A DNA stretch of 34,640 nucleotides from assembly GCA_030621515.1 (NCBI GenBank), contig JAUXHN010000023.1:1-34640 (forward strand), written 5' to 3'. The DNA comes from Deltaproteobacteria bacterium. GTDB lineage: Bacteria; Myxococcota_A; Polyangia; JAAYKL01. Shown here piece after piece: positions 14,281-33,115 of this stretch. The first letter of the stretch is position 1. Every line of letters starts with the position of its first letter. A program made the translations under genes and the position numbers. The notes below the pieces were generated by a model. That model was not told the origin of the DNA, searched no databases, and saw only the letters and a list, made by a program, of their open reading frames with translations.

Positions 14281-15108
14281 ATGAATGAAGAGTGGAACAC
14301 AATTGATCGAGGCGCGCGTTTCCTGAAGGAACGGCTCGGGACAGGCCCCGATGTTCACCTGGTTCTGGGCTCCGGTCTCGGTGGGGTAGCCCACGGTCTG
14401 GAGGATTCGCGCTCGGTGCGGTTCGATGAGATTCCGGGATGGACCAACTCTACCGTGGACGGGCACGCGGGGGAGCTTCGGCGAGGGTGGATAGCCGGGG
14501 TCGAGGTTCTTCTGCAGATGGGACGAATTCATCTGTACGAGGGCCACACGGCGGCGCAGGTCGTTCGCCCGGTTCGCGTGGGGATAGCCTACGGCGCCAA
14601 AACGGTGATTTTGACCAACGCGGCGGGGGCAATCAACGAGGCGTTCAGGGCCGGAGATCTCATGATGATCGAGGATCACCTCAACCTCACGGGCGTCAAC
14701 CCTCTCACCGGACCGAACAACGACGGCCGGGGCGAACGCTTCCCGGACATGACCAACCTGTACTGTTCCAAGTTGCGCGCCACAGCCCTGGATCGTGCCG
14801 CCCACCTGGGCATCGTGCTGCGATCGGGCGTGTACGCGGGAGTGAACGGACCGTCCTACGAGACGCCCTCCGAGGTGCGGATGATGGCCGGGATGAGTGT
14901 GGACGCGGTGGGGATGTCCACGGTGCTCGAGGCCATAGCGGCCCGGCACATGGGCGCGCGTATATGCGGGATATCGTGCATCACCAATCAGGCTGCTTCA
15001 ATCAGGGGAGTCCCCTTGCGCCACGACGAGGTGAAGATGTTCGCGGCCAAGGCGTCCGACGACTTGATCCGTCTCATAGCGGCCATCCTCGACTCGCAGG
15101 AGGGGTAG
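14281..15108 (+). CDS. punA: Purine nucleoside phosphorylase, trimeric type
   Basis: A 275-residue protein of usual length for class I PNP. It has the phosphate-binding Ser31 in VLGSGLGG, GRIHLYEG (H84, Y86, E87), NAAGAIN (113-119), NGPSYETP (Y193, E194 at the base pocket), GMS (M212, S213) and TNQAA (N236). It cleaves purine ribonucleosides with phosphate to free base plus ribose-1-phosphate. The Asn in TNQ fits 6-oxopurine substrates. No Shine-Dalgarno is evident before the ATG, and the 54-base upstream gap shows no good promoter. The cytidine deaminase follows after a single base, so the pair forms a nucleoside salvage unit. Confidence 0.93.
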   Translation: MNEEWNTIDRGARFLKERLGTGPDVHLVLGSGLGGVAHGLEDSRSVRFDEIPGWTNSTVDGHAGELRRGWIAGVEVLLQMGRIHLYEGHTAAQVVRPVRVGIAYGAKTVILTNAAGAINEAFRAGDLMMIEDHLNLTGVNPLTGPNNDGRGERFPDMTNLYCSKLRATALDRAAHLGIVLRSGVYAGVNGPSYETPSEVRMMAGMSVDAVGMSTVLEAIAARHMGARICGISCITNQAASIRGVPLRHDEVKMFAAKASDDLIRLIAAILDSQEG

Positions 15109-15109
15109 G

Positions 15110-15496
15110 ATGACAGATAGTATCGACTGGGGCGCGCTTCATGACGCGGCTTCGCATGCAAGGTCCAACGCCTATGCTCCCTATTCAAAAATCACCGTCG
15201 GATCTGCAGTTCTCGCCGACGGGCGGGTGTTCTTCGGATGCAACGTGGAGAACGCCTCGTTTCCGGTGGGGTGTTGCGCGGAGCGAGCAGCCCTATATGC
15301 TGCGGTGGCCGCCGGTTGCCGGAACATTCAGGCGGTCGCCATAGTCAGCGAAGAAGCGATACCTCCGTGCGGGATGTGCAGGCAGGCGCTGGTAGAGTTC
15401 AACCCATCCGTTCCGATCCGGCTCTACGGCGCGAATTCGGAGATCTCCTGGAATCTGGACGCCCTCTTGCCCGAACCGTTCAGGTTAATATACTGA
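15110..15496 (+). CDS. cdd: Cytidine deaminase
   Basis: A 128-residue protein of the small tetrameric type. The zinc site is complete: CAE at 56-58 (ligand C56, catalytic E58) and PCGMC (ligands C87, C90), with NVEN (45-48) for ribose binding. It turns cytidine and deoxycytidine into uridine forms plus ammonia. The ribosome-binding site (GGAGGGGTAGG) lies inside the end of the PNP gene, so the two are expressed together. Only seven bases separate it from the protein kinase gene, an unusual neighbour for a salvage enzyme. Confidence 0.95.
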   Translation: MTDSIDWGALHDAASHARSNAYAPYSKITVGSAVLADGRVFFGCNVENASFPVGCCAERAALYAAVAAGCRNIQAVAIVSEEAIPPCGMCRQALVEFNPSVPIRLYGANSEISWNLDALLPEPFRLIY

Positions 15497-15503
15497 CAAC
15501 GCC

Positions 15504-17234
15504 ATGACTTTTTGTCCCCACTGCGACGAGATCCACGACAAGGGTGTAGATTTCTGCCCCCGGACCGGCCGCCCCATAGTCGACGTGGTGGATCGGATGG
15601 TCGGTCGTACAATCGCCGGAAAATACAAGCTTGTACGTTGTATCGGCCAGGGTGGGATGGGGACGATCTTCGAGGCGGAGCACGTCCTGATCGGCAACAG
15701 CGTCGCAGTGAAGATGCTTCACCAGCCGTTTGCGCAAAAACGGGAGCCGGTCCAGCGCCTCTATCGCGAGGCAAAGGCAACCGGCGCCGTCGGTCACCCC
15801 AACATCATAAAGGTGCATGACGTGGGCGAGACCGCCGACGGGATCCCGTTTCTGGTCATGGAGTTGCTCAAGGGTCAATCCCTCGGGGATCACATCGAGA
15901 ACAACGGACCCTGCTCGATCGGGTTCGTTCTGGAGATGAGTATACAGTTACTCTCCGCTCTGCACGCGGCCCATCGAGCGGGGATCATTCACAGGGATCT
16001 CAAGAGCGACAACATTTTTCTTTTGAATACGGAGCCCGACAAGATCTTCATCAAGGTTCTGGATTTCGGGATCTCCAAGTTCATTTTGCCGGAGATGGAG
16101 AACCTAAAGCTCACCCAGACGGGGTCCGTACTCGGCACACCCTACTACATGTCTCCGGAGCAGGCTTCGGGCAAGAAGGATCTGGATCTGCGCATCGACA
16201 TATACTCGGTGGGGGTCATCATCTACGAATGCCTTATCGGTATAATTCCGCATACGGCGTCCAACTACAATGCACTGCTCATCCAGATAATCAGCCAGGA
16301 TGTGAAACCCTTTCGAGGGGGCCGTCCGGATGTGCCGAAGGAACTCGAGGCCGCGGTGCTAAAGGCCATGTCGCGGCGCCGGGAGGATCGGTGGGACAAC
16401 GCCCTGGACCTGATGGATGAGCTGGTCTCTATTCGCGACAGCCTGTCTTCGCAGGCCCTCACCGCAGAGCCAGACATCCGTCGGGATTTCCCGGTAATGG
16501 ATCGCGACTCGCGGACCATGGACATCAAGGACGCGTCGTTCGGGGGTATCGACGCCACGCCGTTGCAATACGAAACCGGCCTGCGGACCGGCTTTGGCCC
16601 CTTCGGCAGAGTCTCTCGCAAGAAGCTGGCCGCGTGGATCGGGGCGTCTTTCGGGCTCATTGCGGGTGTGGCAATAGCCTTCATGTGGATCTTCACCGGG
16701 CCTGCCGCAACTCCGGATACCGGGTTTGTGGTCCATGGGGAAACCCCTGCAGTGACAGTCGACAAGGGTCTCGCGGACGCATCGCCTGCGGTCGATGCCC
16801 ACGTGCCGGTCGCGGATGTGGTTCGCCTGGTGGTCGTGCGCATGCCGAAAGAGGCGATGGTTCGTGTGGACGGTCGGGAGGTGCCCGTGCATGGGCTCGA
16901 TATCCGGAAGGGAGTGGAATCGCTTCAGGTAGTGGTGAGCGCGGAGGGCTTCGAGACAGCGCAGTTGCAGGTGATCCCCTCGAAAGACGTCACCCTGGAG
17001 ATCGAGCTAACCGCGATCAAACCGGCGAAGGGCAAGAAGGGCCCAAAGAAAAAGGGCAAGAAGAGCGGTAAATCGGGAGACCACGTTGCGCCGGCTTCCA
17101 CAGAAATCGACAAGCCCGACAAGCCCGACAAGCCTGATAAGCCCGACAAGCCCGACAAACCCGACAAGCCCGACAAGCCCGACAAGCCTGATAAACCCAA
17201 GTCGATCGAGCACCCGATGGACAATCCATTCTGA
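15504..17234 (+). CDS. Transmembrane Ser/Thr kinase with zinc ribbon, PEGA domain and DKP tail
   Basis: A 576-residue protein. Residues 4-22 are a zinc-ribbon-like knuckle (CPHC, ten residues, CPRTG; C4, C7, C18). The kinase domain spans ~41-305: GQGGMG (48-53), K70 in VAVK, HRDLKSDN (163-170, catalytic D165), DFG (187-189) and SPE (217-219). A single span follows at ~376-397. The outside part has a PEGA domain (~441-505, MVRVDGREV...EGFETAQLQV), a Lys/Gly-rich stretch, ten DKP repeats, and the end MDNPF. The Arg before the catalytic Asp marks a kinase activated by loop phosphorylation. The layout is that of the Pkn kinases abundant in Myxococcota. It sits seven bases behind cdd and 19 bases before a TPR/2-TM gene. 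Whether the DKP tail lies in the periplasm follows from one span and is inference. Confidence 0.93.
   Translation: MTFCPHCDEIHDKGVDFCPRTGRPIVDVVDRMVGRTIAGKYKLVRCIGQGGMGTIFEAEHVLIGNSVAVKMLHQPFAQKREPVQRLYREAKATGAVGHPNIIKVHDVGETADGIPFLVMELLKGQSLGDHIENNGPCSIGFVLEMSIQLLSALHAAHRAGIIHRDLKSDNIFLLNTEPDKIFIKVLDFGISKFILPEMENLKLTQTGSVLGTPYYMSPEQASGKKDLDLRIDIYSVGVIIYECLIGIIPHTASNYNALLIQIISQDVKPFRGGRPDVPKELEAAVLKAMSRRREDRWDNALDLMDELVSIRDSLSSQALTAEPDIRRDFPVMDRDSRTMDIKDASFGGIDATPLQYETGLRTGFGPFGRVSRKKLAAWIGASFGLIAGVAIAFMWIFTGPAATPDTGFVVHGETPAVTVDKGLADASPAVDAHVPVADVVRLVVVRMPKEAMVRVDGREVPVHGLDIRKGVESLQVVVSAEGFETAQLQVIPSKDVTLEIELTAIKPAKGKKGPKKKGKKSGKSGDHVAPASTEIDKPDKPDKPDKPDKPDKPDKPDKPDKPDKPKSIEHPMDNPF
17109..17198 (+). 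repeat. Ten tandem DKP-coding 9-bp repeats in the kinase tail
   Basis: Ten copies of a nine-base unit (mostly GACAAGCCC) code DKP ten times near the C-terminus of the kinase. The variants GATAAG, AAACCC and AAGCCT occur in a pattern that suggests block duplication of three or more units. The repeat keeps frame whatever the copy number. In the protein it would form a stiff, charged, Pro-rich spacer. Confidence 0.9.
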
Positions 17235-17253
17235 TCTTGTAGAATCCAGAGTA

Positions 17254-18018
17254 ATGTTTTTTGCAAGAACCCCACACAGTGTTTGTTCGCAATTGTCCCG
17301 CGGATGCCTCGTCGCGGTCGCTTTTGCGGCAGTCCTCGCAACGAGCGGTCAGGCGAAGGCCCAGGGGGACGACATGCAGCGCGCCAAGGACGCGTTTTCG
17401 CGGGGGCAGGCGCACTACGATATCGGTGAGTTCAACGAAGCCAGGGATGCCTTCCAATTGTCCTTCGACGCTTTTCCGCACTTTCGGACCATCTTCAACC
17501 TGGCCCTTTGCGAGGAGAAGCTCGAAAATATTGCCGCGGCTGTCGAATTGTACCAGCGATATCTGTTCTGGTCGGGCGATGTTCCAGCCCGCGGTGACGT
17601 GGAAAAAAAACTGAAGAAGCTCAAGGCCATGTTGCCGCCCGAACCGGAACCTGAGCCCGAGGTGGAAAAGGGGCCGGACCTGATCGTTCCGGGCTGGATA
17701 ACACTGGGATCAGGGGCCGCCGTCACCATCCTCGGTGGTGTCATGCTGGGACTGGCTGCGTCCAGGAAGGGCGAGATCGAGAACGTGCAAGATGTGGCAT
17801 ACGACCCCAAAAAACACGATGAGATGATCGCGGATGGTGAGCAGTACGAACTAGTCGGTTGGTTGGCGGGAGGGATCGGTGTAGCGGCCATGGGCGCCGG
17901 GTTGGTGATGTTGCTCGTTTCGGATAGGGGCGAGGAGAAACAGGACGAAGCCGGGCCGACCGTGAATGTCGGGCTCCTGGACAGCGGCGTCGTAATCGGC
18001 GCAGGTTGGAGTTTCTAG
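17254..18018 (+). CDS. Exported TPR protein with two C-terminal membrane spans
   Basis: A 254-residue protein from the ATG at 17254, which has only a weak AGAG site; the frame continues upstream through the DKP repeat in another phase, which is not coding here. The signal peptide ends near QAKAQ (residue 37). Two TPR-like helix pairs follow (AFSRGQAHYDIGEFNEARDAF; FNLALCEEKLENIAAAVELYQRYL), then a Pro/Glu hinge (PPEPEPEPEVE), a span at ~146-169, a charged loop, a second span at ~206-229, and a short tail ending GWSF. A second protein of this architecture lies at 29158-30168. It is placed between the kinase and a Cys-rich lipoprotein whose ATG directly follows its TAG. Function unknown; it may be a scaffold for envelope assembly. 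Confidence 0.75.
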   Translation: MFFARTPHSVCSQLSRGCLVAVAFAAVLATSGQAKAQGDDMQRAKDAFSRGQAHYDIGEFNEARDAFQLSFDAFPHFRTIFNLALCEEKLENIAAAVELYQRYLFWSGDVPARGDVEKKLKKLKAMLPPEPEPEPEVEKGPDLIVPGWITLGSGAAVTILGGVMLGLAASRKGEIENVQDVAYDPKKHDEMIADGEQYELVGWLAGGIGVAAMGAGLVMLLVSDRGEEKQDEAGPTVNVGLLDSGVVIGAGWSF

Positions 18019-19713
18019 ATGTGGCCGCGCGTGTACACAATGCTCGCGCTTTTCGTAGCGGTAACGCTGTCGGCAGTTTCGTGCATGGATTTCGGATGGA
18101 AGTCAGGTCAGTTCGTATGTGATGGCCCGGATCAGTGCCCTCCCGGTTTCTTCTGCGATCTGGAACAGGGATATTGCGTGGATGGGGATGGCCCGGACGT
18201 GGACACGGATACCGACGTGGATACGGACAGTGATACCGATACCGACACGGATACGGACACGGACACCGGCGAGTGTACGAGCCCCGGGGATTGTTTCCAG
18301 CCCGAGTGCGGGGACGTCAGTTGCAACGACGACAACGAGTGCGAGTACGGAGCAGATGGAGGGCTCTGCGAGATCACAAACGGTGAGTGCGATCACGGCG
18401 TCTGTACTCTTGCGGACACGAGCTATCCGCCGGTTTGCGAATTCGACGTGGACTGGCAAGGCTGCGACCCGGGGGATGTCTGCGAGGGCGATCCCGACTA
18501 CCTGTGCGTCGACGGCACATGCGTCGACGGAGTTGTCGGCAACGAGCAGTGCCTCACCACCAACCCGGGAGAGACGCATCATCCATCGGTGGTGGTCACG
18601 GACTCAGGCTTTTCCGCTGTGTGGATAGACGACTTCAGCTCGGGTTATGGCCACCTCTTTTTCGCCACGTTCAATTCTGTCGGGATATTGCTGGCCTCTG
18701 CTCAGGTGGGAACGGCGTACTACGAGTATCCTGCCCTGGTATGGCTTGGAACCGTTGTGGACGGCTACGCGCTTGTGTTCCAGCGATGGGTATCGTCGAA
18801 CCACGAGGTGATGCTCGATTATCTGGACGCTACCGGCGCCCTGACCTCGTCGACGCTTCAGATATCGGATGGGGATAGCGCGGATTCGCGTTATCCGGAG
18901 GCGGCCATGGGTGTCTTCAGTTCGGACAGGCGGCTGGCAATTGTATGGCAGGACAAGCGCAACGATGCATTGTACAAGCACGATGCTTACGTGTCTGTCG
19001 TCAACCTGGATACCTTCGCCGTGCTCGGCGACAACCAGCGCCTGACCGACGATCCGAGGGACGAGATGTGGGCGTCGGTGGTGGCCACGGACGACAATTT
19101 CCTGGTCTCCATCACCGCCTACGAGGAGATCGCGGGAGATGTGCCGGGGCAGGTTCTGACCCGCGCGACGACCTCCGACGGCACGCTGGTGGGATCCTCC
19201 CACGCAGAGATCACGCCCGACGGTTATGCGATTCCTCCCGCCGTAATAGCGTGGGACGACGTGTCCGGAAGCGCAGGAGTGGCGTGGCGTGATCGCAGGG
19301 TAAACGGCGAGTTCAGGATAATGTTTCGCCTGCTCGATTCTTTCGGCGCGCCTGTCGGGAGTCTCGAGGACGGGTTGGTGGTGGGACCTTCACACAACGC
19401 CGGGTGGAATCAGAATGGCCTGTCCATGTATTTCCACAGTTCCCCCGCGCAGGAGTTCGTGCTCGCCTGGGACGGTGTTCCCGGTGATTACTCGGGTGAT
19501 GTGGAGGTGGCCGACCTGATGGTCTCCCGGATAGCCGCCGACGGTCAGTCGGTGGATTCCGCGTACATACTCTGCGGCGATCCCGCCAGATCGATATGGC
19601 CGAGGATCGCCGAGTTCGGCAGTGTCGCGCTGGTGCTCTGGCAGGACAACCGCGATGACAATACCCTCCCTGCAGATGGCGAGATTTACGCGGCCACTCT
19701 GGATTGCCAGTGA
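18019..19713 (+). CDS. Large Cys-rich lipoprotein with DT tether and propeller-like head
   Basis: A 564-residue protein whose ATG touches the preceding TAG; GGAG seven bases upstream lies inside the last codons of the TPR gene. Lipobox VSC (C22). A first Cys motif (FVCDGPDQCPPGFFCD...GYCVDG) is followed by a 22-residue D[TSV] tether (62-83), a Cys-rich, EGF-like block to ~180, then ~380 residues almost free of Cys. That part repeats strands such as FSAVWIDD, LAIVWQDKRND, AGVAWRDRRVN and LVLWQDNRDD at ~55-residue steps, like a six-blade beta-propeller with W-x-D-x-R motifs. No catalytic site is recognised. It is probably a surface-exposed receptor or adhesin-type protein working with the TPR and kinase neighbours (inference). 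Confidence 0.75.
   Translation: MWPRVYTMLALFVAVTLSAVSCMDFGWKSGQFVCDGPDQCPPGFFCDLEQGYCVDGDGPDVDTDTDVDTDSDTDTDTDTDTDTGECTSPGDCFQPECGDVSCNDDNECEYGADGGLCEITNGECDHGVCTLADTSYPPVCEFDVDWQGCDPGDVCEGDPDYLCVDGTCVDGVVGNEQCLTTNPGETHHPSVVVTDSGFSAVWIDDFSSGYGHLFFATFNSVGILLASAQVGTAYYEYPALVWLGTVVDGYALVFQRWVSSNHEVMLDYLDATGALTSSTLQISDGDSADSRYPEAAMGVFSSDRRLAIVWQDKRNDALYKHDAYVSVVNLDTFAVLGDNQRLTDDPRDEMWASVVATDDNFLVSITAYEEIAGDVPGQVLTRATTSDGTLVGSSHAEITPDGYAIPPAVIAWDDVSGSAGVAWRDRRVNGEFRIMFRLLDSFGAPVGSLEDGLVVGPSHNAGWNQNGLSMYFHSSPAQEFVLAWDGVPGDYSGDVEVADLMVSRIAADGQSVDSAYILCGDPARSIWPRIAEFGSVALVLWQDNRDDNTLPADGEIYAATLDCQ
18202..18267 (+). repeat. D[TSV] tether microsatellite
   Basis: 66 bases coding 11 Asp-X dipeptides (X is Thr, Val or Ser), built of the same GAYACS hexamers as the tether at 8471-8650. 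Here it lies between two Cys-rich blocks instead of directly after the lipid anchor. Confidence 0.85.
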
Positions 19714-19726
19714 CGGGCCGCTGACC

Positions 19727-20266
19727 ATGGCGTCGTATTCCAAAACATTGCTGCTCATCTTTTCGGTGATGTGCGTTGCGTGCAGCGACACGGACGGCAC
19801 CGATCCGTACGCTCTATGGCGGACCTTCGAGCACCCGACTTCGGCGTTTCACTTTCATTACCTGTCGCCACCGTGGGAGTCGGTGGAAGATACCGGACCT
19901 GAAAGGGCTGTACTCGCGGTCGATCCGGACACCGATGGGCTTGTGGATGATCATCCCAACGCCAGGCTGAGGCTCGAGGTGTGGCTGGTCAACGCCAACC
20001 CGGTCTCCGATGTTGTTGGCGACCGGCATGATCATTGGGTGGGGCTCGGCTACCATGTGGATCCTCCGAGGTTGTATTGGAACGGCGCCGATGATGAGGG
20101 CGTTCGCGTGGAGGCTGCCGACGGGCCTTACCTTCGGGTGACAGAAGTCTTCTATTCCCTCGGCGGCAGGACAGCCTTGTTGTCCCTGTGGATGAACGGC
20201 GAGTCTGACCGGAGCGATCTCGAATTGCTGATCGAAGGGTTCGAACCTCGAGGGTCGGAGGAGTGA
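19727..20266 (+). CDS. Small lipoprotein, unknown family
   Basis: A 179-residue protein. The ATG at 19727 opens a lipoprotein signal (MASYSKTLLLIFSVMCVAC, C19) followed by SDTDGTD, a very short form of the acidic tether. The frame stays open upstream inside the previous gene, but without a signal. The mature part is rich in aromatic residues and His (HPTSAFHFHYLSPPW; DRHDHWVGLGYHV) and ends with GFEPRGSEE. It resembles the small lipoproteins that test whether a stress or fatty-acid-like ligand is bound, but no family can be named. It is 13 bases behind the Cys-rich lipoprotein and its stop nearly overlaps the start of the zinc-ribbon barrel gene, so it belongs to that operon. Confidence 0.65.
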   Translation: MASYSKTLLLIFSVMCVACSDTDGTDPYALWRTFEHPTSAFHFHYLSPPWESVEDTGPERAVLAVDPDTDGLVDDHPNARLRLEVWLVNANPVSDVVGDRHDHWVGLGYHVDPPRLYWNGADDEGVRVEAADGPYLRVTEVFYSLGGRTALLSLWMNGESDRSDLELLIEGFEPRGSEE

Positions 20267-20267
20267 T

Positions 20268-21275
20268 TTGAAGCGAAGATCGATATCAAGGCTGTTTGCG
20301 GCGCTTCTGGCAATGGCGATGATCCTTTGCGTGGGGGCGATATCTTTCGCCGCCAAAGTTCGTTGCCCCGTCTGCAGGCAGGTTTTCGACGAGAAGGTGA
20401 AGGTCTGCCCGGATGACGGTACCGACCTGACGCTGTCGGGGCAGGTGGTGGAGGAAGAGTCGAAGAAGGACGGGCCGGAGCCGGAGGCGATCGAGGAATC
20501 TCCGTACGATGATGAGGAGGAGGACGGCGGGAGCGGCAAGTACAAGCGCCACGATCTTGGAGGAGACCGACGGCGCATCGAGGCCGAGGAGGGGCCCGTG
20601 TACTCCGACAGGTACCGGAGGGTGGGGGAGGAGCGCCGGAGCCCGGAGGCGGCGGCCGAACGTCGTAAAAAAGCCAGGGAGAAGCGGAAGACCGAGTTCG
20701 ACGAAGAAGACACGGGGCTGAAGTCCGAGTTCGAGGACAATCGTCGGAATATGTGGCGCAGGAGGCGGCAGCGGGCGTACGACGACAAGGCGAAGGCTCA
20801 GGACGTCGCTTACCTGGAGTGGTTGTCCCTCTGGGGCAGGGGAGCCCCCATAGCTTCCCTCGGCGCGCGAGTTTCCTGGATGGGGGAGGGGAGCGATCCG
20901 GGCTTCATCAGCGGACCGGAGATCGACATCAACATTCTTCGAAAAGAAATACGACTTGGGTTATCGACAACCATAGGCTTTCGCACCCTGCCGGATCGCA
21001 CGGACATGATCTTCATGGAACATATTTCGGCCGGGATCCAGTTGCCCTGGCGGTTCTCTCCGTACCTGATCGCAAAGGTGGGGTTGGGACCCCTTGCAAG
21101 CAACCGGTTCGGAAACGACTTGACGTATCTGGTGCGCGCGCTTGGCGCGGAGAGCGGACTCGATTGCCGGGTGACCCGATCCCTGGTTATCACACCCTCG
21201 GTCGGGTATGTCAGGTACGTCGTGGATGACGCGTACTGGAACAGCTTCACCGCCAAAATATCCGTCGGTTTCTAG
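20268..21275 (+). CDS. Exported zinc-ribbon protein with charged linker and barrel-like C-terminus
   Basis: A 335-residue protein from a TTG one base after the preceding stop, with a strong GGAGGAG site. Signal peptide 1-28 (RLFAALLAMAMILCVGAISFAA). Directly after it comes CPVC, ten residues, CPDDG (C33, C36, C47, possibly D50), the same knuckle spacing as in the kinase at 15504. Residues ~60-180 are a highly charged disordered region (acidic, then Arg/Lys-rich). From ~185 to the end, alternating strands (IASLGARVSWMG, IRLGLSTTIGFRTL, HISAGIQLPWRF, LIAKVGLG) and the ending AKISVGF suggest an outer-membrane barrel of about eight strands. A zinc knuckle on the periplasmic side of a barrel is unusual. 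The function is unknown. It closes the kinase operon. Confidence 0.7.
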   Translation: MKRRSISRLFAALLAMAMILCVGAISFAAKVRCPVCRQVFDEKVKVCPDDGTDLTLSGQVVEEESKKDGPEPEAIEESPYDDEEEDGGSGKYKRHDLGGDRRRIEAEEGPVYSDRYRRVGEERRSPEAAAERRKKAREKRKTEFDEEDTGLKSEFEDNRRNMWRRRRQRAYDDKAKAQDVAYLEWLSLWGRGAPIASLGARVSWMGEGSDPGFISGPEIDINILRKEIRLGLSTTIGFRTLPDRTDMIFMEHISAGIQLPWRFSPYLIAKVGLGPLASNRFGNDLTYLVRALGAESGLDCRVTRSLVITPSVGYVRYVVDDAYWNSFTAKISVGF

Positions 21276-21304: not shown

Positions 21305-21332
21305 TTGACAAGTCAATTTTCAATCATATACT
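21305..21332 (+). promoter_or_regulatory. Near-consensus sigma-70 promoter of the dnaG-rpoD block
   Basis: TTGACA (21305-21310), 16 bases, TATACT (21327-21332) in the AT-rich 110-base gap before dnaG. The -35 box is perfect and the -10 box has five of six matches. Transcription should start near 21339, giving a leader of about 47 bases. It is the best housekeeping promoter in the window. Confidence 0.75.
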
Positions 21333-21385: not shown

Positions 21386-23215
21386 GTGATCCCTGAAGCG
21401 AAGATCGCGGAAATCAGGGAACGGTCCGATATTGTTGAGGTGATCGGCGAGTACGTCACTCTCAAGCGGGCCGGGGTGAATCACAAGGGCGTCTGTCCCT
21501 TCCACGCGGACAGCGATCCGTCGTTCAATGTCAACCCCGCGCGACAATTCTATCACTGCTTCGGATGCGGCGTGTCGGGGGATATTTTCAAATTCCTGAT
21601 GACCATCGAGGGCCTGTCGTTCGTCGAATCGGCGCGCAGGCTCGCGGGTCGATACGGCGTGGAACTCCCCAAACAGGAGATGACTCCTGCCGCCAGAACC
21701 GAGCAGGAGCGCGCGAGAGAGGCGTTGAGGAGGAGACGACTCATCCTGGAGACGGCGGCGACGTTTTTCGAGGACAACCTCTGGAGCCCGACGGGCGCGC
21801 AAGCCCGTGAGCTGATCAAGGCGCGAGGCATCGACGACGAGATCGCGCGGCTGTACAGACTCGGTTATGCCCCCGATTCATGGCAAGCCCTCCTCGACCA
21901 CCTTCGCGAAAAGCGAATATCCGCCACGGAAGTCGAGGCGGTTGGCCTGGCGTTGCCGCGCAAGGGCGGGAGCGGATACTACGATCGGTTCAGAAATCGG
22001 CTGGTGTTCACCATCACGGATCCCTCCGGGCACCCCATTGCCTTCTCGGCCAGAGTGATTGGAAGCGGAAGCGGGGGCGACGGGCGAGATCCAAAGTACG
22101 TGAACTCCCCGGAGACCAGGGAGTTTGTAAAGGGAAAGATCCTGTTCGGCATTCACGCGGCCAGGGTCGATCTTTCGAAGACCCGAGAGGCGATTCTGGT
22201 GGAGGGCAATTTCGACGTGGTCTCCATGGCCCAGGCCGGGTTCAGAAACGTTGTGGCGCCGCTTGGAACCGCTATCACAAATGATCACGCTGTCATCCTC
22301 AGGAGGAGGGTGGACAACGTGACGGTGATGTTCGACGGAGACGTCGCGGGAAGAAAGGCGGCGGCCAGAGCGTTCCCCATGCTGGCGAAGGTCGGGCTGG
22401 CGGCATATGTGGCGCCGCTTCCCGAGGGAGAAGATCCAGACAGCCTGTTTCGCAAGGGTGGGAAGGAAGCCATCGATTCATTGCTTGCAGTAAAAAAGGG
22501 ACTGCTCGATGAGATTATCCGATCTTCGGCAGCCGCCTCGGACGGGAGCGCCCAGGATGCAGCCCGCAGGATCGGCAAGCTCGGACCCTTCGTTGCGGCT
22601 GTCCAGAACCACATGGAGCGAGATGTGTACAGGCAGCTCATCGCCGACGTATTCGGTGTCGATTCAAGGGTGGTCTTTTCCCATCTCAGAGGAGGCGGCG
22701 GTTCGACATCGGGATCGCAAGAGCGCGGGGCAGGTCGGGAAGAGACGCCCATTCCCGGCACGACCGAAGAGCGGGAGCTGATAGGTCTCATGCTGGATCT
22801 ACCCGGGCTGTGCGGAGAAGTAGAGGAGCGTGGAATCACAACCATGATCGTAACCCAACGCCTGCAGAAGATCGCGAGCGACCTGATTCTCGGATACAAG
22901 CGGAAGGAGTTCGATATTTCGGAAATGCTGAGTGGCTCGGGAGATGATTCCGCAGTCACATGGTTTGCAGCCAGAGCGATAAAACCGCTTTTCAAGGAGG
23001 AGGAAACGGGGCGCGAGGCCCTCAAGGAAATCGAACAGCGAATGCGAGGTACTTTTTTGAAACAGGGAGTCCGGGAGCTGGATCAGCAGATTCGTCTGGC
23101 CAATGCGGCCAACGATTACCATAAAGTGCTAGAATTACAGCGAGGACGGACAGAAATCGAAAAAGAAATTACCGATGCACATCAAGCTTTTGACAAAGAC
23201 CCGATCAGGGATTAA
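21386..23215 (+). CDS. dnaG: DNA primase
   Basis: A 609-residue protein of normal length, starting at GTG with only a weak GA-rich site. The N-terminal CHC2 zinc finger has C37, H40, C58 and C61 ([11 protein letters not shown]...YHCFGCG). The RNA-polymerase core follows (residues ~120-260, with [10 protein letters not shown] and PKYVNSPET), then the TOPRIM part (E273 in VEGNFD; D317 and D319 in DGDVAG). The C-terminal ~150 residues should bind the replicative helicase DnaB. The protein makes the RNA primers for replication. It lies 20 bases before rpoD, the order seen in the macromolecular synthesis operon, but rpsU is missing at its usual upstream place. Confidence 0.97.
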
Positions 23216-23235
23216 AGCGTGCCAGGGGATTTCGC

Positions 23236-25149
23236 ATGAGAACCACTACTGAAAAGAAAAACATCAAGCAACTCATAGAGCTTGGCAAGTCCAAGGGCTT
23301 TGTCACGTATGAGGAAGTAAACGACCATCTGCCCGAGGAGATGGTCTCATCCGATCGCATCGATGATCTGCTCGACCTTCTGACGGGAGAGCAAATCGAA
23401 GTGGTCGATAGTGGTGAGGCTGCGACTGCGGGGAAGAAGGGTGGAGTCGACGCCGGCGCTGCGGTTTCGGAGCCCGGCAAGCCCGCAGTGGAGGCCGAGG
23501 AACAGGATCTCGGATACTTCTCCAAGACCAACGATCCGGTGCGCATGTACCTGCGCAAGATGGGGACCGTCTGTCTTCTCACCCGAGAGGGAGAGGTGGA
23601 GATTGCCAAGCGTATCGAGCGCGGTGAACGGCAAGTGCTGGATATGCTCATGACCTCCAACATCGCCATTCAGGATATCATCGGATTGGGTGACAAGCTT
23701 CTGGAGGAGAAGATACGTCTCAAGGACGTGGTCGAGCGCAGCCACGCCAAGTCCGCAAAGGCGAAAAGCGAAGACGGCGAAGAAAAGGAAGAGAAAGAAG
23801 AGGAATTTGAGTTCGAAGAGGAAGAAGAGGAAGAAGAGGAAGAAGAGGAAGACGAAAAAGGAGAAGAGGAACTCAAATATGACGAGTACGAGAATATCGT
23901 CGAGCGAGTGGAAGCTGACCGTCGTTTCCTCGAGACGATCGATGATGTTCGCAAGATAAGCGACGAGATTCAGCGATGCACTTCGTTGCTGAAGGACGGG
24001 AAGAAACTCACCGATCGCAGGCGCGAGACTCTCATGCGCAAGGTTACCGACTGTCGTTTCTGCGTGAAGAATCTGCTGGTAAGCCTCAACCTCAACAAGG
24101 GACAGATCGTCCGGATCGTCGCCCAGTTGAAGGAGTTCATCGGCAGGGTGGAGGAGGCCGAGGCGGCGGTAGTCGCGTGCGAGAAGCGCGCCGGAATGTC
24201 CGCTCGGGACATAAGGCGAACCGTCCGGGAGATGAAGCTCGGCAAGGCGGCGGAGCGAAGAATCTGCCGCAAGCTGGGGCTGCGGGCGTCCGAGCTACAG
24301 GAGCTCGAGGATATCATCCGCGATTCCCACAAGAAAGTCCGTGTAGTAGAGGAAGACGTCAATCTCGACATCGAGGAGCTCAGGGAGATCTACCGATGCA
24401 TACGCGAGGGTGAGCGACACGCGGAGAAGGCCAAGGCCGATCTGGTTGAGGCCAACCTGAGGCTGGTGGTGTCAATCGCCAAGAAGTACACGAACCGGGG
24501 GTTGCAGTTTCTCGACCTGATCCAGGAGGGCAATATCGGGCTCATGAAGGCCGTGGACAAATTCGAGTACCGGCGCGGTTATAAATTTTCCACTTACGCC
24601 ACGTGGTGGATCCGTCAGGCGATCACTCGCGCAATAGCGGATCAGGCACGCACCATCCGGATCCCCGTGCACATGATAGAGACCATCAACAAGCTCATCC
24701 GAACGAGTCGATACCTGGTTCAGGAGATCGGCCGCGAGCCCACTCCGGAGGAGATCGGCGATCGTATGGAGCTGCCCCTGGACAAGGTGCGCAAGGTCCT
24801 GAAGATCGCCAAGGAGCCCATCAGTCTGGAGACTCCCATCGGGGAGGAAGAGGACAGTCACCTCGGAGACTTCATCGAGGACAAGGGCGTGGTCTCGCCT
24901 GCCGAGGCGGTCATCGGTCTCAACCTGTCCGAGCAGACCAGGCGCGTGCTCAAGACCCTCACCCCCCGCGAGGAGAAGGTGCTCAGGATGCGCTTCGGTA
25001 TCGGCGAGAAATCCGACCATACTCTCGAGGAGGTAGGCCAGGATTTCGAGGTGACCAGGGAACGAATTCGCCAGATCGAGGCGAAGGCGCTTCGCAAGCT
25101 GCGGCACTCGTCCAGAAGCAAACATCTCAAGAGTTTCATCGAGCAGTAG
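23236..25149 (+). CDS. rpoD: RNA polymerase primary sigma factor
   Basis: A 637-residue protein with AGGGGA before the ATG. Region 1.1 is at 1-50 ([27 protein letters not shown]). Region 1.2 starts at ~98 ([12 protein letters not shown]). A long non-conserved region (~130-390) holds a very acidic stretch (179-213) with twelve Glu in a row. Regions 2.1-2.4 begin near 400 ([32 protein letters not shown]..., [10 protein letters not shown]). Region 3 follows ([20 protein letters not shown]), and region 4.2 has the -35-reading helix-turn-helix at 596-622 ([20 protein letters not shown]). All core contacts of a housekeeping sigma-70 are present. purF starts three bases later. Confidence 0.97.
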
Positions 25150-29121: not shown

Positions 29122-29157
29122 AGGATGTTGTTGTTTCCTGCTTCTTGGGGAGGGAGT

Positions 29158-30168
29158 ATGCGACGAGTCGTTGCGGTCACTCTTGCGATTCTGGTTTTCG
29201 GCCTGTGCCATGCAGTTTGCGCTCAGGCGGATGATTCACAAAAGGCCGAGGCCAGGAAACACTTCGACGCGGGCAAGGGGTTGTTGAAGGTCGAGGAGTT
29301 TGTGGCGGCGGCGGCCGAGTTCGAGGAGTCGGTGCGGCTGTTTCCCACAAGGAACGGGTTGTTCAACCTTGCAAACGCATACAAGGGCATGGGCCGCTAC
29401 GACAAGTCGCTGAAGGCCTACGAGCGGCTTCGAACGGAGTTCGGGGATCGGCTCGGCAAGGAGATGGAGCGGAAGGTCGCGCAAGAGGTCAAAGACATTG
29501 CCGCGATGCGGGCCTGGTTGATCCTCAAAGTGGACCAGCCACAAGCGCCCATCGATATCGACGGACTCCGGTACGGAGAATCCCCCATGCGGGAAGCCCT
29601 CGTGTTGGGGGCCGGCTCCCATGAACTGAAAATTACTCTGGACGGATTCGAGCCGTTCTTGACGGAGGTGACCCTGCTCGCCGGGGACAGGCAAACCCTT
29701 TCGGTGCAGATGGTACCAGTGGAGGTGGAGGCTCCAATAGAAGATGAGCCAGAGCCCGAGAAAGCCGATACAGAACCCGAGCCAACCCCGGAACTGGAGC
29801 CTTTACCCGCAAAGAAAGGGTGGTCGGGCCTTCGCAAAGGCGGAGCCGCAATAACCTGTATTGGAAGCACAGCCCTCCTTGGCGGAATTCTCACCGGCGT
29901 CACGGCATTGACAATCGGTTCGAGTCTCGAAAAGGACTGCCCCGATGGAATTTGCACACCGGAAAAGAGCGATCAAATCGAGGGCATGGGCAACCATGCG
30001 ATTGCGGCCGACGTGTTGCTCGGAGTCGGCGGCGCAATGTTCGTCACAGGAATGGTGATGCTGATAGTCGACAAGAAGAGACGCAAGCAGGAAAACATCT
30101 CCGACGTAGTAATTGCTCCCCTCACCGGGCCGTCCATGGGTGGCGCCGTCATTACAGGGAGGTTCTAG
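29158..30168 (+). CDS. Exported TPR-PEGA protein with two C-terminal membrane spans
   Basis: A 336-residue protein; the ATG at 29158 has GGGGAGGGA just upstream and opens a signal peptide (MRRVVAVTLAILVFGLCHAVCAQA). An earlier in-frame ATG at 29125 lacks this. TPR-like helices fill ~28-115 (KHFDAGKGLLKVEEFVAAAAEFEESV; LFNLANAYKGMGRYDKSLKAYERL). A PEGA domain follows at ~120-186 (IDIDGLRYGESPM...DGFEPFLTEVTL), then a Pro/Glu hinge, spans at ~229-254 and ~281-304 joined by a loop with two Cys (CPDGIC), and a tail ending VITGRF. It shares plan and junction with the protein at 17254-18018 but has the added PEGA domain. Function unknown; an envelope scaffold is likely. Confidence 0.78.
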   Translation: MRRVVAVTLAILVFGLCHAVCAQADDSQKAEARKHFDAGKGLLKVEEFVAAAAEFEESVRLFPTRNGLFNLANAYKGMGRYDKSLKAYERLRTEFGDRLGKEMERKVAQEVKDIAAMRAWLILKVDQPQAPIDIDGLRYGESPMREALVLGAGSHELKITLDGFEPFLTEVTLLAGDRQTLSVQMVPVEVEAPIEDEPEPEKADTEPEPTPELEPLPAKKGWSGLRKGGAAITCIGSTALLGGILTGVTALTIGSSLEKDCPDGICTPEKSDQIEGMGNHAIAADVLLGVGGAMFVTGMVMLIVDKKRRKQENISDVVIAPLTGPSMGGAVITGRF

Positions 30169-31176
30169 ATGATGAGGTCATTCATCATTGTGTTTGCGGT
30201 GGCAGTCGCCGGCTGCCAGCTCTTCCTGCCCGAATTTGAAATCGTGGATGATGGGGGTACGGATTCGAATTCAAATCTTGCCGCAAATGGAGAAGCATGC
30301 TCACAAGAAACCGACTGCCAGAGCGGGCACTGCCTCAACAATGTGTGCTGCCCCCCCGGCGGCGAGTGTTGCAATGAAAACGTCGGCTGCGGTGTCCTGG
30401 TCTGCGACCTGGTCACTTTCACATGCTTCACCGAGTGCGCCCCGGGTGGGGAGGAGCACGATGAATACTGCGTCGAGGGTTTTCACTGCGACGCCGACGT
30501 TTGCCTGGAGGACATTGTAACCGGCGATTGTGACGAGAACTCCGACTGCGTGAGCGACGAGTGCATAGATGACAACTGCTGCGAGCATGCGGGGCTCTGT
30601 TGCGGAGGCGACCAGGATTGCCCGGAGATGTTCGACGGCTGTTCGGTAAACAACACCCAGACCTGCGTGTTCTCCCCGTTCTCATTCCCCGACACGGGGC
30701 AGGCGGACGACTGCTACGATTCGAGCGGAACGCTAGTGGATTGCTCCACTATATCACCGGGCGCGGAGTACTACGGGCAGGACGGCCACTATCCCGGGCC
30801 TGGACGCCTTTACGACGATTCCAATACCGATTGGATTGTTGATCAGATAACCGGGCTTTCATGGACGGTGGGCCCGCTTTCTCAGGATGGTTGGGATAAC
30901 GCTGTCGTAATATGCGGCCAAGAGACTGCGGGCTCCAAGACCTGGAGACTGCCAAAGCGCCATGAGTTGTTGAGCATCGTGGACTATCGCAGTGGGGGCG
31001 GCGTCGGGGTGGATTCCGTCTTTGGTTTTAGCCCTGACACTGTGTTGGTGTGGTCCGTTGAATCAACGGGCGACAACTCGACCAAGGCATGGGCGGTTGA
31101 CTTCGATACCGGCGATCTTATGCGCGCTGAAAAGATCGACACCGGTCCACGGTATATTTGCGTGGCGGAGAACTAG
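30169..31176 (+). CDS. Cys-rich lipoprotein with C-terminal Lcl (DUF1566) domain
   Basis: A 335-residue protein whose ATG directly follows the TAG of the TPR gene; GGGAGG six bases before serves as ribosome-binding site. Lipobox VAGC (C16). The stretch 42-165 has over 20 Cys in motifs like CSQETDCQSGHCLNNVCCPPGGECC, typical of disulfide-rich stalks in Myxococcota lipoproteins. The C-terminal ~140 residues form an Lcl/DUF1566 domain: TDWIVDQITGLSWTVG, WRLPKRHELLSIVD, VWSVEST and the ending RYICVAE. This fold is found in a Legionella collagen-like adhesin and many secreted proteins, probably for binding sugars. The next gene carries the same domain. Confidence 0.82.
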   Translation: MMRSFIIVFAVAVAGCQLFLPEFEIVDDGGTDSNSNLAANGEACSQETDCQSGHCLNNVCCPPGGECCNENVGCGVLVCDLVTFTCFTECAPGGEEHDEYCVEGFHCDADVCLEDIVTGDCDENSDCVSDECIDDNCCEHAGLCCGGDQDCPEMFDGCSVNNTQTCVFSPFSFPDTGQADDCYDSSGTLVDCSTISPGAEYYGQDGHYPGPGRLYDDSNTDWIVDQITGLSWTVGPLSQDGWDNAVVICGQETAGSKTWRLPKRHELLSIVDYRSGGGVGVDSVFGFSPDTVLVWSVESTGDNSTKAWAVDFDTGDLMRAEKIDTGPRYICVAEN

Positions 31177-31680
31177 ATGATGAAGAAATTTAGAAACAAC
31201 ATTGTTTACCTGCTCGCCGTGGCCGCGATGGTGCTCGTTTCGTCCGTCTGCCTGGCCATCGATCCAAGGTACAACATTGATGGAACCGCCGAAGAGCCCA
31301 TAGTAACCGATCACATCACCGGGCTGGGGTGGCAGCAAAACACGACTCTCGGGGACGGAGGCGTAAACTGGATGGACGCGCTGGCTCACTGCGAGGGGCT
31401 GTCATACGGAGGCAGCGACGACTGGCGGCTGCCCAACGTGACTGAGCTAATATCCATCGTCGACGAGAAGAGGGCGGAAGCCCCGGCCATCAACCCCGTC
31501 TACTTTCCAGGCTTCGACGCCGAAGGCGGTCACTGGACCTCCACCACCTCCAGGAAAACCGGCACTTCCGCATACATTGTCTACTTTGGTGAACATGACA
31601 GCACCCTGGGCCGCGGCGGCATGAGCGCGGTACCCAAGACGGTGTCGGCGCTGGTGTTATGCGTGAGAGGCAACGAGTAA
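31177..31680 (+). CDS. Secreted Lcl-domain (DUF1566) protein
   Basis: A 167-residue protein beginning on the base after the stop of the previous gene, with GGAG six bases upstream. Signal peptide MMKKFRNNIVYLLAVAAMVLVSSVCLA (cut near 27). The whole mature part is one Lcl/DUF1566 domain: TDHITGLGWQQN, WMDALAHCEGL, DDWRLPNVTELISIVD, HWTSTTS and the end ALVLCVRG. It is a soluble or released form of the domain carried by the lipoprotein before it, so the pair probably arose by tandem duplication and domain swapping. Confidence 0.85.
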   Translation: MMKKFRNNIVYLLAVAAMVLVSSVCLAIDPRYNIDGTAEEPIVTDHITGLGWQQNTTLGDGGVNWMDALAHCEGLSYGGSDDWRLPNVTELISIVDEKRAEAPAINPVYFPGFDAEGGHWTSTTSRKTGTSAYIVYFGEHDSTLGRGGMSAVPKTVSALVLCVRGNE

Positions 31681-31696
31681 ACGTGGAGGAAGATAA

Positions 31697-33115
31697 ATGA
31701 AAAATATCCTGCTTTTCACTGGAATGCTGTTTGTATCGGCATCGTTTTTAGCGTGTGACGACGAAAAAGCCGCGACGGATGAAAACGACTCCGGAACCGG
31801 GGACACGGACACCGATGGCGACGGGGACACCGACACGGACACCGATGGCGACCCACTATTGACCTTCTCCCCATGGAATGTCTCTGAAAACAAGACCAGG
31901 TTCCCCCTGCCGGTCCAGGCGGGATCAATGCGCGCCGACAGCGTAGTCCTCGTCGGACTCAGCGCCAACGTGGATCAGGTCCGGCTGGTGATCTGGCCCA
32001 GGGCATCCGAAGGGTCGGAGGTTACGTCCGTCGCCAACCGCGATGTCCCTCCGGCGGACGGCTATCTCAAGGCCGTGGTCGAAGGACTGGAGTCGGGGAG
32101 CTGGTATCAGTACGCCTTCTTCGTCGACCAGGGCACCGACGATTTCACCGAGCGTTCCGTCATCGGCCAGTTCCGCACCGCCCTCGCGCCGGGCGCCCTG
32201 GAGCCCGTGGTGGTCGCCGGAACCCACGGAACCAACGGTTCCTACAAACCGTTCACCGCTCTCGAACTCACCGCGCAGCACGATGTCGACGTCTTCCTCC
32301 AGCTCGGCGACTTCACTTACAACGACGGGGCCGAGACTCTCGCCGCCTTCCGCGCCTCCTGGCGAACAAACGTGGACGACCCGGGGTACTGGGCCATCCT
32401 GCCCCATGCGGGTCAATACGTGATCATCGACGACCACGAGGTGATGGACAGCGACTCTCTGCCCGGCGCCCCTTCGGCAGTGGTGGAAGCGGGGCTGCAG
32501 GCGTTTTACGAAAACACGCCGGTCCTCAAGGGAGACAGCGGCAGCTACTGGGACAGCTATCGATGGGGCGATACGGTGGAGTTTTTTGCCCTCGATTGTC
32601 GCTACGAGCGCGATTCGACCACCAATCAGTACATCAGCATCGAGCAGATGGAATGGCTCAAGCAGGCCCTGTCCGACAGCCCCTGTCACTTCAAGGTCCT
32701 GCTCAACTCGGTGCCCATCACCCAGTGGCCGGCGGTGTGGGTCATGGCCTACGACCGCTGGCAGGGGTTCCCGGATCAACGGCGGGAGCTGCTCGATTAC
32801 ATCGCGGACAACAATATCACCGGAGTGTGGTCTCTTAGCGGAGATTTTCACGTGGCCTCGGTAGGTCTGGTGGACACGACGCCGCCGGACAACGCCATTC
32901 GCGAGGTGCTGATGGGTCCCGGAGGCAACAAGGGCAACCCGGCCTGGACGCTGTATCAGACCATGCCGGAGACCGTGGCCCCGTCGGCCCAGTTCGACTT
33001 CTTCTACGGCCTGCCCACGGCGACGATCGTCACCTTCGATCCGGTCGCGGATGAAGTATTTGTGGAGTTCTTCGACGACGTCACCCAGCAGGTGCTTTTC
33101 ACCAATACATACTGA
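31697..33115 (+). CDS. PhoD-like phosphatase lipoprotein
   Basis: A 472-residue protein with GGAGGA before the ATG. Lipobox FLAC (C20), then an acidic tether (GDTDTDGDGDTDTDTDGD). Residues ~55-165 look like the N-terminal Fn3-like PhoD_N domain (ADSVVLVGLSA; YLKAVVEGLESGSWYQYAFFV). The metallophosphatase part has LQLGDFTYND, IDDHEVMDSD, ALDCRYERD and SGDFHVASVG, the metal-binding motifs of the PhoD alkaline phosphatase / phospholipase D-like family (Fe and Ca in the Bacillus enzyme). It lacks a Tat signal and is instead lipid-anchored, probably on the outer membrane, which is less common. It may release phosphate from outside esters. It is 16 bases behind the Lcl gene. Confidence 0.87.
   Translation: MKNILLFTGMLFVSASFLACDDEKAATDENDSGTGDTDTDGDGDTDTDTDGDPLLTFSPWNVSENKTRFPLPVQAGSMRADSVVLVGLSANVDQVRLVIWPRASEGSEVTSVANRDVPPADGYLKAVVEGLESGSWYQYAFFVDQGTDDFTERSVIGQFRTALAPGALEPVVVAGTHGTNGSYKPFTALELTAQHDVDVFLQLGDFTYNDGAETLAAFRASWRTNVDDPGYWAILPHAGQYVIIDDHEVMDSDSLPGAPSAVVEAGLQAFYENTPVLKGDSGSYWDSYRWGDTVEFFALDCRYERDSTTNQYISIEQMEWLKQALSDSPCHFKVLLNSVPITQWPAVWVMAYDRWQGFPDQRRELLDYIADNNITGVWSLSGDFHVASVGLVDTTPPDNAIREVLMGPGGNKGNPAWTLYQTMPETVAPSAQFDFFYGLPTATIVTFDPVADEVFVEFFDDVTQQVLFTNTY

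Follow-up and report, generated by a model that had tools for sequence, protein, structure and literature searches.

A candidate split receptor kinase beside an older outer-membrane gene pair in Myxococcota

Introduction

Myxobacteria have some of the largest Ser/Thr kinomes among bacteria, and for most of these kinases the input is not known. In Corynebacterium and Mycobacterium, the GlnH-GlnX-PknG system consists of a lipoprotein sensor, a membrane coupler and a kinase with a tetratricopeptide repeat (TPR) scaffold (PMC9769921, PMC8546545). TPR domains are carried by 26% of 317 Ser/Thr kinases of Sorangium cellulosum, a figure cited in PMC11032199. Here we describe five consecutive genes of a Deltaproteobacteria bacterium that encode a kinase (KIN), a TPR protein (TPR), a first and a second lipoprotein (LIP1 and LIP2) and a barrel protein (BARREL). 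They lie in a window of 34,640 nucleotides, which is one contig (JAUXHN010000023.1, C259 in our numbering) of a metagenome-assembled genome (MAG) in 346 contigs.

An earlier note, made from the sequence alone, had read these genes as one functional unit spanning the cell envelope. Our analysis divides them into two units of three and two genes, KIN-TPR-LIP1 and LIP2-BARREL, and not a single five-gene module. We favour, with slightly better than even confidence, the reading that KIN-TPR-LIP1 is a split receptor kinase located beside an independent and older outer-membrane pair.

Results

The genes were compared across a family sample of 14 genomes, all of them fragmented MAGs (relatives that carry names are MAGs labelled Myxococcota, Myxococcales or Deltaproteobacteria). 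Orthologues of KIN, TPR and LIP1 were identified in exactly the same six genomes; the other eight yielded none of them, and TPR and LIP1 orthologues were never found without a KIN orthologue. The KIN orthologues are distinct from paralogues (E<1e-130 versus ~1e-90 for the next best). TPR and LIP1 are separated by 0 or -1 base in all six genomes, the tightest junction of the locus. BARREL is present as a single copy in 12 of the 14 genomes and LIP2 in 11 of those 12. The complete five-gene order is present in G000, G002 and G003, and G001 has the same order from the kinase tail onward, where its contig starts. G006 retains the TPR-LIP1-LIP2-BARREL-dnaG order with the KIN orthologue ~10 kb upstream on the same contig, still ending in PMDNPF, and G009 has KIN-TPR-LIP1-BARREL together, without LIP2 and not near dnaG. 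The five-gene arrangement is not due to chance, because orthologues in other genera retain both order and spacing.

The other six of the 12 BARREL-bearing genomes lack the trio. Five of them (G004, G005, G008, G012 and G013) share the order punA-cdd-LIP2-BARREL-dnaG, with cdd directly before LIP2, while in G007 LIP2-BARREL-dnaG is preceded by a different, unrelated kinase and a PAS histidine kinase. LIP2 and BARREL are thus found apart from KIN, and the five-gene functional unit of the earlier note stands for KIN, TPR and LIP1 but not for LIP2 and BARREL. The latter two form an older association with punA-cdd and dnaG-rpoD, independent of the trio; in the loci read from other families they are absent from the region upstream of dnaG. 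Similar-looking PAS histidine kinases adjoin LIP2-BARREL in G007 and KIN in G009 (L063:9508-11034 and L064:12254-13867).

In a phylogeny based on rpoD and dnaG, the trio-bearing genomes do not form one clade (approximately unbiased (AU) test, p=0.0065), and G000 and G001 group with a clade that lacks the trio (support 90/97). Because the six genomes are not a clade, the trio appears to have been lost jointly in two lineages. Most simply, the family ancestor carried the trio, which then disappeared as a whole on two occasions, once in G007 and once in the group of five genomes with cdd directly before LIP2, while LIP2-BARREL was retained. These two joint losses, within a history limited by the fragmentation of the MAGs and by some nodes of modest support, are the main reason that we draw the module as three plus two genes.

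A single envelope-spanning signalling complex of all five products, with BARREL and LIP2 as the outer-membrane end of a kinase receptor, would fit the adjacency of all five genes that parsimony places in the family ancestor, as well as G009, in which the trio and BARREL are together away from dnaG. KIN and BARREL also carry a similar Cys ribbon, and the BARREL helix could reach into the periplasm. However, LIP2-BARREL was kept in six genomes without the trio, and G009 has no LIP2 though the trio and BARREL remain. We therefore consider a five-product complex unlikely.

The TPR gene is one of 25 paralogues in its genome that encode TPR proteins with two transmembrane spans (TPR/2-TM), all 25 of which end in Phe in our alignment. 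Nine of the 25 genes are directly 3' of a Ser/Thr protein kinase (STPK) gene, or ten if one at a contig-end cut is included. A lipoprotein gene comes next in 18 of 20 scorable cases, versus 29 of 207 other genes in the genome, and a second lipoprotein detector gave a similar contrast (19/24 versus 23/241). In other families of the class, the TPR/2-TM gene follows an STPK gene in 13 of 36 cases and precedes a lipoprotein gene in 17 of 35, against a background of 8/86. Among membrane STPKs of the family that had not been looked at before (held-out kinases), 12 of 34 are followed by a TPR/2-TM gene, where ~1% would be expected. In 14 of 40 pairs (~1 expected), the nearest kinase and the nearest TPR protein belonged to one and the same partner pair. 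From these neighbour counts in the genome, in the class and among the held-out kinases, we conclude that KIN-TPR-LIP1 represents an arrangement that recurs. Its three-part form is seen less consistently than either pairing, kinase with TPR or TPR with lipoprotein.

TPR/2-TM C-termini (17980-18015 in the window; L166-L190) mostly read GxxxxGRF with a conserved Pro upstream, and resemble an outer-membrane beta-signal despite the helical spans. The window holds a second cassette (29125-33115) that lacks a kinase. It starts with a TPR-PEGA-2TM gene (29158-30168), which is followed at 0 bases by a lipoprotein with an Lcl_C domain, then by a further Lcl_C protein and a lipoprotein resembling PhoD.

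Several observations weigh against a split receptor kinase as drawn here. The kinase of G006 is separated from TPR-LIP1, the G009 locus would fit a wider module, and all of the genomes compared are fragmented. Only four of the 12 held-out kinase-paired TPR genes are followed by a lipoprotein gene, and most TPR/2-TM genes (15 of 25 in this genome) have no adjacent kinase. No deep co-duplication of kinase and TPR was apparent: the Mantel r was 0.14 across all pairs, and distant pairs showed no correlation. In this genome, the tail motif [NDSE]P[FWY] or [DE]FE is found in 8 of 10 TPR-followed kinases versus 3 of 14 others, but the association, predicted beforehand, failed in the held-out kinases (6/12 versus 12/22, p=1), so the idea that TPR neighbours specifically read this tail is not supported. 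An association of neighbours without joint function, in which TPR-lipoprotein pairs are one surface system and kinases another, both abundant and often adjacent, would account for the TPR/2-TM genes without a kinase, the weak deep co-evolution and the split in G006, but it is improbable given the perfect co-occurrence of the trio, its two joint losses, the excess of TPR genes after held-out kinases and the matching of partner pairs.

KIN is a Hanks-type STPK (PF00069, 148 bits versus a gathering score of 31.7) with an N-terminal Cys ribbon (CPHC...CPRTG), a kinase domain at residues 41-271 and one transmembrane segment at ~379-397. The catalytic motifs AVK, HRDLKSDN and LDFGIS are intact and conserved in the orthologue alignment. 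The extracytoplasmic part is variable and poorly conserved, and contains PDK repeats and a stretch that weakly resembles PEGA. A PEGA part had previously been assigned to this kinase, but the match to PF08308 is below threshold (12.5 versus 20.8 bits), appears in only two of five orthologues at E<=10, and falls in a stretch that is deleted in the orthologue of the sister species. The protein closes with PMDNPF, six residues that do not vary among five orthologues, whereas the ~150 residues before them do. The number of PDK tripeptides in the tail (17108-17200) varies between sister species. A C-terminal [NDSE]P[FWY] (MDNPF, SNPFG, DPWS) or xFE (EDFE, DEFE) is found on many of the family's membrane STPKs, the KIN tail being at 17217-17231; by eye, such motifs look far commoner than expected among the kinases of the 14 genomes (G000-G013), with or without a TPR neighbour.

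LIP1 has a lipobox Cys at position 22, a small 4-Cys module, an Asp/Thr repeat linker of varying length and a Cys-rich region. Its C-terminal part carries seven W-D type blade motifs ~50-60 residues apart, and from these motifs we predict that it is beta-propeller-like, as had been proposed. The N-terminal module (MDFxWxSG...CPxGxxC) and Asp/Thr repeats (18060-18270) are shared by many lipoproteins of the family that differ in other respects.

LIP2 is a small lipoprotein (Cys19). Its AlphaFold2 (AF2) model (pTM 0.77, mean pLDDT 84) matches the PsbP/Mog1 fold, an alpha/beta/alpha sandwich, with CyanoP (2xb3) aligned over 135 residues at Z 13.7 and a root-mean-square deviation (rmsd) of 3.2. Membership of the PsbP family was not detected by sequence, as LIP2 has no Pfam match, be it to PsbP or to DUF1795, and its profile matches no PDB sequence.

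BARREL comprises a signal peptide, a ribbon with three Cys, a disordered linker, a 65-residue helix and eight strands at 196-334, and ends in SVGF with a C-terminal Phe. Its TTG start codon lies behind GGAGG and is kept in both sister species. The AF2 model is an 8-stranded barrel with pLDDT ~90-95 and aligns with NspA (Z 17.6, rmsd 2.4, 142 aligned), OprF (17.4), OmpA (17.1) and OmpW (16.1). The model confirms the barrel that the earlier note had thought likely, predicting a true 8-stranded outer-membrane beta-barrel. If it is oriented like OmpA, the ribbon and helix would be on the periplasmic side. BARREL does not belong to the OmpA family proper by Pfam, in which it has no match, and has no domain C-terminal to the barrel; its profile gave only low-complexity matches to PDB sequences. 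Similar Cys ribbons are found at the cytoplasmic end of KIN (CPHC..FCPRTG, 15507-15572) and at the exported start of BARREL (CPVC..VCPDDG, 20370-20440). Families f4, f7 and f21 (L013-L023) contain barrels related to the C-terminal part of BARREL. These were rejected as its counterparts, since they lack the ribbon and sit behind N-termini that are Pro-rich or of other kinds.

All five open reading frames are real and on the + strand, with intergenic spacings of 19, 0, 13 and 1 bases, as first reported (Table 1). The earlier assignment to membrane layers also holds: a kinase with one transmembrane segment, an exported TPR protein whose two hydrophobic spans lie late in the sequence, a pair of lipoproteins and an outer-membrane barrel. 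The run had been taken to begin at the kinase; the five genes are consecutive, but the same-strand run is longer and takes in dnaG and rpoD downstream and punA and cdd upstream, which are 1 base apart, cdd ending 7 bases 5' of KIN. No terminator-like hairpin was found between any of the five genes. Promoter-like sites, as consensus matches only, are located directly before KIN and before TPR, so that of the separating signals considered in the earlier note a possible promoter is present within the run and a terminator is not. The 110-base gap between BARREL and dnaG contains the best promoter-like site. No RNA family or tRNA was found in the window.

Table 1. Coordinates of the five genes and flanking features in the window.
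Feature	Position	Strand	Description	Basis
KIN	15504..17234	+	Hanks-type Ser/Thr kinase	Pfam PF00069 E 4e-43; orthologue alignment
TPR	17254..18018	+	signal peptide, TPR domain, Pro/Glu linker, two hydrophobic spans, C-terminal Phe	
LIP1	18019..19713	+	lipoprotein, putative C-terminal beta-propeller-like part	
LIP2	19727..20266	+	small lipoprotein, PsbP/Mog1-like fold	alignment and AF2 model
BARREL	20268..21275	+	predicted 8-stranded outer-membrane beta-barrel, TTG start	AF2 model
punA + cdd	14281..15496 (punA 14281-15108, cdd 15110-15496)	+		Pfam, synteny
promoter-like TTGACA-16-TATACT	21305..21332	+	between BARREL and dnaG; 11/12 positions	consensus match only
dnaG + rpoD	21386..25149 (dnaG from 21386, rpoD from 23236)	+		Pfam, synteny

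Discussion

In the split receptor that we favour, LIP1, as a propeller-type lipoprotein placed towards the outside of the envelope, would be the sensor. Anchored through its two spans, the exported TPR protein would act as a periplasmic adaptor, and KIN, a single-pass Ser/Thr kinase with its free PMDNPF tail outside the cytoplasm, would relay the signal into the cytoplasm. This division into sensing, coupling and transduction is proposed after GlnH-GlnX-PknG and the myxobacterial kinases with fused TPR; we infer every physical contact in it, together with the topology of TPR, the direction of signalling, the ligand and the phosphorylation target. LIP2-BARREL would work without the kinase, as a barrel whose ribbon-and-helix arm reaches into the periplasm, probably accompanied by the PsbP-fold LIP2.

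Of greater interest is the recurrence of the arrangement throughout the class; the individual parts are of known kinds. This recurrence raises the possibility, to which we give somewhat less than even weight, that an STPK, a TPR/2-TM protein with a C-terminal Phe and a lipoprotein make up a general undescribed class of split receptors in Myxococcota. Across the envelope, one adaptor family with dozens of paralogues per genome would pair many different lipoprotein sensors and often a dedicated kinase. Should the input side indeed consist of the neighbouring TPR/2-TM protein and lipoprotein, a large share of kinases would gain candidate sensors that are testable gene by gene. The corrected boundaries, three plus two genes instead of five, also set apart an outer-membrane pair linked to dnaG-rpoD. 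Our literature search, in a library without most subscription papers, found no description of the arrangement.

The ambruticin-sensing complex was set aside as a comparison because it is made of histidine kinases. BARREL resembles barrels of the NspA/OmpA/OmpX/OmpW type in its eight strands and C-terminal Phe, but it has an N-terminal Cys ribbon and a long helix, lacks a C-terminal peptidoglycan-binding domain and has 6-16% identity in structural alignments. LIP2 shares its predicted fold with lipoproteins and secreted proteins of the PsbP/Mog1 type (CyanoP, LpqN and DcrB), but has no detectable sequence similarity to them and a different gene context. KIN is a single-pass receptor Ser/Thr kinase like the PASTA kinases PknB and Stk1. 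However, it has no PASTA domain according to Pfam, its short and variable extracytoplasmic part ends in PMDNPF, and it scores 278 bits against the NCBIfam model NF033483 (cutoff 450), over the kinase part only. Where TPR or WD40 arrays are fused to the C-terminus of an STPK, the kinase is likewise cytoplasmic, and in Planctomycetota the repeat domains are predicted to be periplasmic; here the kinase, TPR and propeller-like parts are encoded by three separate adjacent genes. The GlnX-GlnH-PknG system (PMC9769921, PMC8546545) is similar to the trio in that a putative operon combines a lipoprotein sensor with a membrane protein and a Ser/Thr kinase, a TPR part linking detection to the kinase, but its kinase is cytoplasmic and has its own TPR, and its lipoprotein is a solute-binding protein. 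Compared with it by description rather than by sequence, KIN has a transmembrane segment and no TPR, the TPR domain belongs to a protein of its own that is exported and has two spans, and LIP1 is propeller-like.

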